A DNA stretch of 64,000 nucleotides from assembly GCF_964186585.1 (NCBI RefSeq), contig NZ_OZ075067.1, forward strand, positions 558,001 through 622,000. The letters run 5' to 3'. The notes under the pieces are model-generated. The model saw only the letters and a list, made by a program, of their open reading frames with translations, had not been told where the DNA came from and made no database searches. Source of the stretch: Microbacterium sp. MM2322 (GTDB lineage: Bacteria > Actinomycetota > Actinomycetes > Actinomycetales > Microbacteriaceae). Shown here in pieces: positions 60,402-62,651 of the stretch. Made by a program: the position numbers and the translations under genes. Each line of letters starts with the position of its first letter. Positions within the stretch are counted from its first letter, which is position 1.

Positions 60402-62651
60402 ATGCCCCACCCCGACGACACCCTCATCGACCCGGCCGAGGCCGAGCGCCTGCTCGCCGCGACCGGACCGGGCCTCGACGCGCTCCTCGTGCGCGCGGCA
60501 TCCGTTCGCGATGCGGGTCTCGTCGCGGCGGGGCGACCCGGCGTCATCACGTATTCGCGCAAGGTCTTCCTGCCGCTGACGACGCTCTGCCGTGACCGGT
60601 GCCACTACTGCGCGTTCGTCGACACCCCGGCGCAGCTGCTCCGCAAGGGCGCTCCCGCGTACCTCGACGACGCGCAGATCCTGCGCATCGCCCGGGCGGG
60701 TGCCGCGCAGGGCTGCAAGGAGGCGCTCCTCACCCTCGGTGACCGCCCCGAGGAGCGCTGGCCCGAAGCGCGGGCGTGGCTCGACGCGCACGGCTTCGCT
60801 TCGACGATCGACTACGTCGCGCACGCCGCGCGGCTCGTGACGGCCGAGACGGGGCTCCTCGCCCACGCGAACCCGGGGGTCATGACCCCCGGCGAGCTGG
60901 CGGCGCTCCGCCCGGTGTCCCCGTCGATGGGCATGATGCTCGAGACCACCTCGCGCGCGCTGTTCGAGACGCCCGGCGCCGCCCACTACGGGTCGCCCGA
61001 CAAAGACCCGGCGGTGCGTGCCGCCGTGATCGAGGATGCTGGGCGTGCCCGCGTGCCCTTCACCACCGGCATCCTGGTCGGCATCGGCGAGACCGTCGCC
61101 GATCGCGCCGCCTCGCTCTTCGCACTCCGCGACGCGCACGCCCGGCACGGTCACCTGCAGGAGGTGATCGTGCAGAACTTCCGAGCGAAGCCGAGCACCG
61201 CGATGCACGGTGCCCCGGATGCCGACCGTGACGCGTACCTCGCGGCGATCGCCGTCGCGCGCCTCGTCCTCGGACCGCGCATGCGCATCCAGGCACCGCC
61301 GAACCTCTCCGACCCGGCCGAGCTCGCTGCGCTCCTCGCCGCGGGCGTCGACGACTGGGGTGGGGTTTCGCCGCTGACCGCCGATCACGTCAACCCCGAG
61401 CGGCCGTGGCCGCACCTCGACGACCTCGCCGCCCACACCGCCGCGGCCGGCTTCGAGCTGGTCGAGCGGCTCACGGCGCATCCCGAGTTCGTGCAGGGCC
61501 GCGACACGTGGATCGACCCGTCGCTGCACGGTGCTGTCGCGGCGCTCGCGGACCCGATCACGGGTCTCGCCAGGAGTGCTGCGGTCGCACCGCGTCGGCG
61601 CGTCCCCAGCATCGCGCTCCTCGACACAGCGGCCTCGACGCCGCGCGACCTGGATGCGGGGGACTGGGAACGCCTGCTCGCCGCGACCGGCGACGACCTC
61701 GAACGTCTCGTCCGCACGGCGGACGACGTGCGGCGGACGACGATCGGCGACACGGTCAGCATCGTCGTGAATCGCAATCTGGCCTCGACCGGGCTCCGTC
61801 GCACCCCGGTTGGCCCCGGTTTCTTCGGACTCGGCGACGCCCGAGAAATCGCCCGGGATGCCGCGGCCCTCGGGGCGAGCGAGCTCTGCGTGCAGGGGCG
61901 TCTCGACCCGGCCGAAGACCCCGCCCTCTACCTCGACCTCGTGGGCGCCGTGCGCGCTGCAGCGCCGTCGCTGCACCTGCACGCGTTCCGCCCGCAGGAC
62001 GTCGCCGACCTCGCGGACCGCAGCGGTGTGGGGATCTCGGCGGCGATCGGCGCACTCCGGGATGCGGGTGTCGGCACGATGCCCGGCACCGGCGTGAAGA
62101 TCCTCGACGACGACGTGCGGCGACGCATCGCACCCGACGATCTCGAGGTCGACCGGTGGCTCGAGATCGTCCGGGCCGAGCATGCGCTCGGGCTGCGCAC
62201 GAGCTCCGTCCTCTTCTACGGCCACGTCGAGTCCGCCGCCGACCGCATCGCGCACCTGCTGCGCCTCCGCGACCTGCACGACGAGACCGGCGGGTTCACC
62301 GAGTTCGTCCCCATTCCGCTGCCCGGCCACTCGTCCACCGTCGCCGACCGGTCCGCTCTCGACGAGCACCGTGCGATGGTGGCTGTCTCCCGCCTGGTCC
62401 TGAACGACGGCATCCGTCACATCCAGATTCCGTGGACGCGGCACGGCCGCGCCGTCACGGCAGAGTTGCTGCGCAGCGGCGGCGACGACCTCGGCGGCAC
62501 GCTGCTCGACGGCAGGGTCCGCCCCGATGCGGGCGTCGAGCAGGGGCTCGAGCTGCCGTTCGCCGACGCCGCGCGTCTCGCCGCGTCGCTGCGGCGCCGG
62601 GTGCGCGAGCGCACGACGGCGTACGGCACGCCCGTCGAGGTGGCCGCATGA
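60402..62651 (+). CDS. CofGH/FbiC-like protein with degenerate CofH half
   Basis: A 749-residue homologue of the bifunctional FO synthase (FbiC, ~850 residues). The N-terminal CofG half is intact: radical-SAM Cys63, Cys67 and Cys70 in [11 protein letters not shown], then [29 protein letters not shown] and [20 protein letters not shown]-like text (here [15 protein letters not shown]). The C-terminal CofH half (~400-749) is recognisable by VVNRN (455-459), [48 protein letters not shown] and [14 protein letters not shown]. But where CofH has C-X3-C-X2-C the aligned residues are R466, V470 and G473. Other reading frames contain no Cys here, so it is not a frameshift. It is embedded in the pyrimidine operon (11 bases after mmsA, ATGA overlap with the next gene). 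It either makes a product other than FO or relies on a separate CofH. Confidence 0.85.
   Translation: [749 protein letters not shown]

Follow-up and report, generated by a model that had tools for sequence, protein, structure and literature searches.

The window analysed here is a stretch of 64,000 nucleotides from Microbacterium sp. MM2322, a member of the Microbacteriaceae (contig NZ_OZ075067.1, positions 558,001 to 622,000). Close to its right end lies an FbiC-like gene in which a CofG half is fused to a CofH half that lacks the radical-SAM cluster motif, a fusion we designate FbiC*, and the gene that follows encodes a type I Baeyer-Villiger monooxygenase (BVMO) (Table 1). In the genome the order is FbiC*, BVMO, F420-dependent glucose-6-phosphate dehydrogenase (FGD; TIGR03554, 455.4 bits, cut-off 420) and CofC (119 bits, cut-off 105), with CofD and CofE further upstream in the window. 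A genome search for a second CofH, either within another FbiC or as a stand-alone gene, found none. With CofC, CofD, CofE, FGD and CofG located, every F420 step that we searched for has a gene save the radical step of CofH.

Table 1. Coordinates of the FbiC*-BVMO locus and of the other F420 genes in the window.
Feature	Position in window	Strand	Description
CofE, F420-0:glutamate ligase	45641..46417	-	TIGR01916 223.7 bits, cut-off 180.65; PF01996
CofD, 2-phospho-L-lactate transferase	46445..47428	+	TIGR01819 290.5 bits, cut-off 257.45
FbiC-like gene (CofG fused to cluster-less CofH*)	60402..62651	+	749 aa, single intact frame
CofG half, about residues 1-390, cluster cysteines C63/C67/C70 intact	60402..61571	+	TIGR03550 455.8 bits
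CofH* half, about residues 425-742, without radical-SAM cluster motif	61674..62627	+	TIGR03551 293 bits and alignments
Linker in place of canonical cluster loop, residues 460-476	61779..61829	+	12-column deletion, unrelated letters
Codon of R530, invariant in CofH*	61989..61991	+	126/126 CofH*; Ser in 96% of 27 canonical CofH
Type I BVMO gene, 489 aa	62648..64000, past window end to genome base 622114	+	overlaps FbiC stop codon
BVMO Asp54 codon	62807-62809	+	aligns with PAMO D66
BVMO Arg136 codon	63053-63055	+	aligns with PAMO Q152
BVMO Arg286 codon	63503-63505	+	aligns with PAMO R337

Immediately upstream, positions 51293-60390 hold genes for a dihydropyrimidinase, a TIGR03842 LLM oxidoreductase, an ABC-transporter ATPase, a class III aminotransferase and MMSDH, which form a cluster for the catabolism of pyrimidines or hydantoins that includes an LLM enzyme of the F420 type. 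The first-pass annotation of this DNA considered the pyrimidine setting notable. As a general feature of such loci we rejected it, since of the 80 named loci, which are the best 80 of 413 and mostly Microbacterium, 6 have the MMSDH gene upstream and 8 a close aminotransferase. The informative neighbour is the downstream BVMO, on which the first-pass annotation is silent.

The CofG half retains its three cluster cysteines, as that annotation had reported, in the motif CRDRCHYC (CxxxCxxC), and it scores above the TIGR03550 cut-off of 213.35. The whole protein, in contrast, falls below the cut-off for the bifunctional FO synthase CofGH (NF006687, 904.7 bits against 1018), as does the CofH half below the curated TIGR03551 cut-off of 374.1, and neither does that half reach membership of the MqnE/MqnC kind (193.6 bits against a cut-off of 434.55, and 239 against 428.1). 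At the sites of the CYTGCRFC cysteines of canonical FbiC stand R466, V470 and G473, and no second CxxxCxxC occurs elsewhere in the 749 residues. The first-pass annotation had seen all three cysteine positions lost, and the alignment bears this out, but the loss is larger than was reported: instead of aligning without a gap between the flanking motifs, the canonical loop has been swapped for a linker of unrelated sequence, which is 12 columns shorter here and variable among relatives. Because the whole loop is replaced, R466, V470 and G473 merely happen to stand there, and the alignments indicate that what was lost is the cluster loop as a whole, not three residues. In addition, the second Gly of the canonical QGGIHP is gone while the first is retained.

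Sequencing error can be ruled out as the cause of the missing cysteines. When the whole protein was the query, the CofH motif was absent from the CofH half in 120/120 listed homologues (the best 120 of 8000), and it is likewise absent from 120/120 homologues of stand-alone CofH* (the best 120 of 2133). We also considered a displaced cluster motif and found none in the CofH part of the relatives' proteins. In one open reading frame (L105), which is extended upstream, another CxxxCxxC lies at position 59 of the extension, ahead of the CofG motif.

Beyond the loop, 45 positions of CofH* (126 distinct domains) agree at ≥95% with 27 canonical CofH. Besides R530, the family has residues of its own in D703, G704, P708 and L718 (≥94%), where canonical CofH has Glu, Glu, Arg and Lys.

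Across 299 genomes of the family, TIGR03551 scores separate into two groups, with 17 genomes at 508-527 bits, 52 at 147-338 bits and none between; four further genomes have matches of less than 40 bits only. We refer to the lower-scoring, cluster-less group as CofH*. CofG is present in the same 69 genomes as CofH or CofH* and exceeds its cut-off in every one, and CofD is found in 51/52 CofH* genomes and 17/17 canonical genomes. With three partial matches left out, CofG scores 437-468 bits beside CofH* and 454-472 beside canonical CofH, so the ranges overlap. Both CofH* and canonical CofH occur within genera g11, g15 and g71. In another 65 of the 299 genomes CofD is present, but neither CofG nor either type of CofH was matched; it is possible that these are FO salvagers or have a further source of FO.

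Within the Microbacteriaceae CofH* is fused to CofG, and in other actinobacteria such as Kineococcus it is stand-alone. Outside the family, three loci (L200-L202) carry the fusion and 16 (L203-L218) a stand-alone CofH* with a separate cofG gene nearby, except that L206 is a short contig on which CofG was not seen. Organisms named among the listed matches to stand-alone CofH* include Kineococcus, Actinomycetospora, Saccharopolyspora and Actinoplanes. Two oddities were observed. In G142 (L083), CofH* and CofG are on different contigs and CofH* is not at a contig end, fusion being otherwise the family rule. A record titled Planococcus sp. APC 4015 (L151) has a Microbacterium-like FbiC*-BVMO locus that falls within the Microbacterium group of the CofH tree, and this assembly is probably mislabelled or contaminated. 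In assembling the set, L230 (CTFKCRFC, with low identity to the canonical query) was reassigned by hand to canonical, L219, a truncated canonical fragment, was left out, and L130 was found to duplicate L049. Current databases name CofH* proteins CofG, CofGH or FO synthase, which has kept the family hidden.

Type I BVMOs are defined by the fingerprints GGxWxxxxYPGxxxD and FxGxxxHxxxW. The window BVMO, whose nearest PDB sequence is phenylacetone monooxygenase (PAMO; E 6e-58), contains both, and the fingerprint residues are invariant or present at ≥90% in 58 aligned linked BVMOs. D54 and R286, at the positions of the PAMO residues D66 and R337 that we take to be catalytic, are found in ≥97% of 122 linked sequences. 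R136, opposite a PAMO glutamine presumably within the active site, is the only residue fixed in the linked clade yet absent from five unlinked paralogues, all of which have His.

Related BVMOs of some Microbacteriaceae (L233, L234, L237, L238 and L239) are 38-44% identical, lack FbiC and each adjoin an alpha/beta hydrolase; they are perhaps of an ancestral BVMO-esterase type. Since related BVMOs exist without FbiC, the BVMO family must have other uses. An alpha/beta hydrolase as a constant third partner of the linked loci was considered and rejected, since more than 400 bases separate CofH* and BVMO in just 11 of 125. GxSxG lines up in 7 of these 11, with a crude choice of frame. In L056 and L066 a hydrolase lies beside the BVMO or is fused to it, no GxSxG lines up in either, and these hydrolases seem to have lost their catalytic residues.

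A BVMO gene is next downstream of CofH*, on the same strand, in 126/128 loci (125 of 127 loci, 126 of them distinct, plus a later-found 128th, L240/L271, where BVMO is present). Both exceptions are at contig ends: L139 has 87 bases of contig left after CofH*, and in G105 (L235) the contig breaks off behind CofH*, with BVMO starting another. The family scan, whose 52 CofH* genomes overlap the 128 loci, found BVMO ≤1.2 kb downstream in 50, the exceptions being the split contigs of G105 and the decaying locus of G179, which has a stop codon in CofG. Canonical CofH keeps no such company. None of 27 canonical FbiC loci of 17-20 kb (with the downstream side of FbiC covered for only about 2 kb in two of them) and none of three further canonical sister loci (L273-L275) has BVMO, and in the 17 canonical genomes no match at 1e-65 was found except one of 35% identity elsewhere in G186, with at most five candidates scored per genome. 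A set of 58 canonical loci of about 4 kb, whose genes partly coincide with those of the 27, contains a single case of an adjoining BVMO (L255/L272, G729); that BVMO is 36% identical, convergent and apparently frameshifted, with Gln at position 136.

The partners also diverge together. For 44 loci, the distances of CofH* correlate with those of BVMO at r 0.78, and those of CofG with BVMO at r 0.52. The partial correlation of CofH* and BVMO given CofG is 0.69, a value reached in 0/2000 permutations. CofH* rather than CofG tracks BVMO most closely. This bears on the idea that BVMO alone makes the adduct precursor, which would react uncatalysed with 5-amino-6-ribitylaminouracil while CofH* would do no more than support CofG or BVMO structurally or as a chaperone. 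Loss of the cluster loop and of the second Gly of QGG fits such a role. However, CofH* has a gene to itself in G786 and in two other families, it has the 45 positions in common with canonical CofH, and its distances follow BVMO more closely than those of CofG do; we regard a purely supporting role as improbable.

To follow exchange between the two CofH types we used trees of 50 sequences, comprising 29 of the 128 CofH* loci and 21 of 30 canonical loci picked to span genera and families. In the careful CofH tree, CofH* forms one clade with branch support of 100/100, and a quick tree of 71 CofH sequences agrees. The CofG tree of the matching 50 sequences calls for five or more changes of CofH type, each forced by supported branches, and since these trees carry no direction, gain and loss are indistinguishable in that count. 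BVMO goes with CofH* in 5/5 independent pairs (sign test p 0.0625, the minimum possible at n=5). A quick 68-row CofG tree without G786 has four changes, of which just two are forced by supported (starred) branches.

G786 provides the clearest single exchange. Here an operon cofH*-BVMO-cofG has on either side homologues of the fbiC-flanking genes of its congeners G777 and G856. The G786 CofG shares 74-75% identity with the CofG of these two genomes and clusters with it in the tree (support 100/98), and identity between its CofH* and their CofH is 43%. Judged from these sequences, G786 looks like an in-place replacement with CofG retained.

These exchanges must also be accounted for by the proposal that an unlinked radical-SAM enzyme performs the CofH reaction and that the neighbouring BVMO has another F420-related use. 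The MM2322 genome does encode seven other radical-SAM proteins above the Pfam cut-off, as well as three weaker matches (L016-L018). Six of the seven are MoaA, MiaB, HemW, LipA, RlmN and NrdG-like, which leaves a protein of the Rv2578c family, of unassigned role, and the three weak matches as candidates. As the proposal leaves unexplained why BVMO accompanies CofH* in each switch, we give it very little credence.

In 15 of 16 close pairs CofH* has a dN/dS of 0.087-0.259; the remaining pair is at 0.766, with a dS of 0.007 and hence almost no synonymous change. Values for CofG in the 16 pairs are 0.064-0.208, and those for BVMO are 0.049-0.249, save 0.476 in the pair with the high CofH* value. 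These ratios indicate that CofH* is under purifying selection. Together with the CofH*-specific invariants and the distance correlation, they argue that CofH* is not decaying and evolves with BVMO. Accordingly, we rejected the view that CofH is dying and FO is salvaged from the surroundings. That view can point to the 65 CofD-only genomes, which suggest that FO salvage may exist in the family, and to the decaying locus of G179; however, dN/dS is well below 1, the class-specific invariants are maintained in a single clade across several families, and CofG is kept, when a salvager would drop it too, as the 65 genomes have. We consider it the least probable of the explanations weighed here, to the point of being almost negligible. 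The first-pass annotation had suggested either that the CofH half is a pseudoenzyme domain kept for binding or dimerisation, or that the CofG half carries out a new reaction. Its conserved, cluster-less scaffold stands, and is under selection, but the idea that the CofG half had taken over a new reaction finds no hint in a CofG sequence whose score is an ordinary one.

Taken together, the loop loss, the BVMO linkage, the repeated exchange over a retained CofG, the purifying selection and the otherwise complete F420 pathway lead us to propose that CofH* and the adjacent BVMO are a two-protein module that probably replaces the canonical radical-SAM CofH in FO/F420 biosynthesis, with the CofG beside CofH* likely still acting as the normal radical-SAM cyclase. 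The two halves of FbiC appear to act independently, by diffusion, according to the part of PMC8498797 that we drew on, and therefore fusion itself says little.

How might such a module work? Canonical CofH converts tyrosine to a p-hydroxybenzyl radical, which it then adds to ribityldiaminouracil (PMC8498797, same part). The net outcome could be viewed as transfer of a 4-hydroxybenzyl cation equivalent, and a BVMO would be able to supply the same equivalent. We tentatively suggest a route from BVMO through a 4-hydroxybenzyl ester to a quinone methide that alkylates 5-amino-6-ribitylaminouracil in the CofH* barrel, a scheme we put at slightly less than an even chance. Using O2 and NADPH, BVMO would place an oxygen atom beside the benzyl carbon of a compound of the type 4-hydroxyphenyl-CH2-C(=O)R, for which 4-hydroxyphenylpyruvate and 4-hydroxyphenylacetaldehyde, both derived from tyrosine, are candidates. 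PAMO converts phenylacetone to benzyl acetate, a reaction that matches the proposed step. The 4-hydroxybenzyl ester, a good source of p-quinone methide, would then eliminate to give it, and the nucleophilic C5 of 5-amino-6-ribitylaminouracil would attack the quinone methide inside the CofH* barrel. The resulting adduct would be the same as that of radical CofH, and CofG would then close the ring. Arg136 would suit an acidic substrate such as 4-hydroxyphenylpyruvate, and the alpha/beta hydrolase beside the unlinked paralogues and some linked genes is as might be expected of a BVMO from a ketone-degrading operon. In the gene clusters, where most genes are unannotated, neither a tyrosine transaminase nor a decarboxylase stood out as a neighbour that recurs.

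The same residues could be read differently. Changed pockets, marked by R530, D703, G704, P708 and L718 in CofH* and by the R136 fixed in the linked clade of BVMO and absent from the five paralogues, could mean changed substrates, such that CofH* and BVMO give CofG a different aromatic partner and the product is a variant deazaflavin with another ring substituent rather than ordinary FO. Against this, the CofC, CofD, CofE and FGD of the same genome pass ordinary F420 family cut-offs, CofG scores lie in one range beside CofH* and CofH, and the two types co-occur within genera g11, g15 and g71. A variant product thus seems unlikely, if less so than the other alternatives, and we favor replacement of the CofH step on the way to ordinary FO.

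In its broadest form, replacement of the CofH step would amount to a second, O2-dependent and SAM-independent route to the FO adduct, in which BVMO would provide the 4-hydroxybenzyl ester and the cluster-less CofH* domain would serve as a two-electron C-benzyltransferase on 5-amino-6-ribitylaminouracil. On this view the two have travelled together, and actinobacteria have seen five or more exchanges between the pair and radical CofH. We can advance this full statement only with some reserve, as a possibility falling a little short of even. More generally, the presence in many actinobacteria of a cluster-less CofH unit beside an O2-using flavin monooxygenase suggests an undescribed, O2-dependent synthesis of the F420 core.

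In all F420 producers studied, FO is made by two SAM-radical domains, as stated in the consulted part of PMC8498797. Our search of the open-access PubMed Central literature, by titles and abstract openings, turned up no report of a CofH lacking the cluster or of a BVMO taking part in FO synthesis, the portion of PMC3288000 that we consulted contains nothing on either, and no measurement of FO or F420 in a CofH* carrier was found in that open-access literature. If our proposal is correct, a cluster-less family that is paired with a monooxygenase and repeatedly exchanged with CofH breaks the rule of two SAM-radical domains, and explains how aerobic actinobacteria can carry out the CofH step. It would also mean that non-radical chemistry has been taken on by a radical-SAM barrel, and would offer an oxygen-using FO synthase for F420 production, a subject on which, by its title, the paper 'Pilot Scale Production of a F420 Precursor Under Microaerobic Conditions' bears (PMC11917521).

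Compared with FbiC/CofGH (FO synthase; NF006687, TIGR03550 and TIGR03551), FbiC* has the same two-barrel fusion, an intact CofG half, the shared CofH positions and F420 genes around it, and differs in having no CofH cluster loop, residues of its own, a BVMO partner and scores below the NF006687 and TIGR03551 cut-offs. MqnE and MqnC of the futalosine menaquinone route belong to the same CofH-like fold family as CofH*, and among PDB sequences MqnE (6xi9/6xig) alone gave a match to it, but they bear the cluster and CofH* scores far below their cut-offs. With PAMO and the type I BVMOs, the window BVMO shares the two fingerprints and the Asp/Arg pair, and the same class of reaction is expected; it differs in its length of 489 residues against 542, in having Arg for Gln152 and in being encoded with F420 genes. 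In pairs of the HemF/HemN type, one step is carried out by either a radical-SAM or an O2-dependent enzyme. The CofH step may present a similar choice, with the difference that here the protein of radical-SAM fold would be kept, cluster-less, as the partner of the O2-dependent enzyme.
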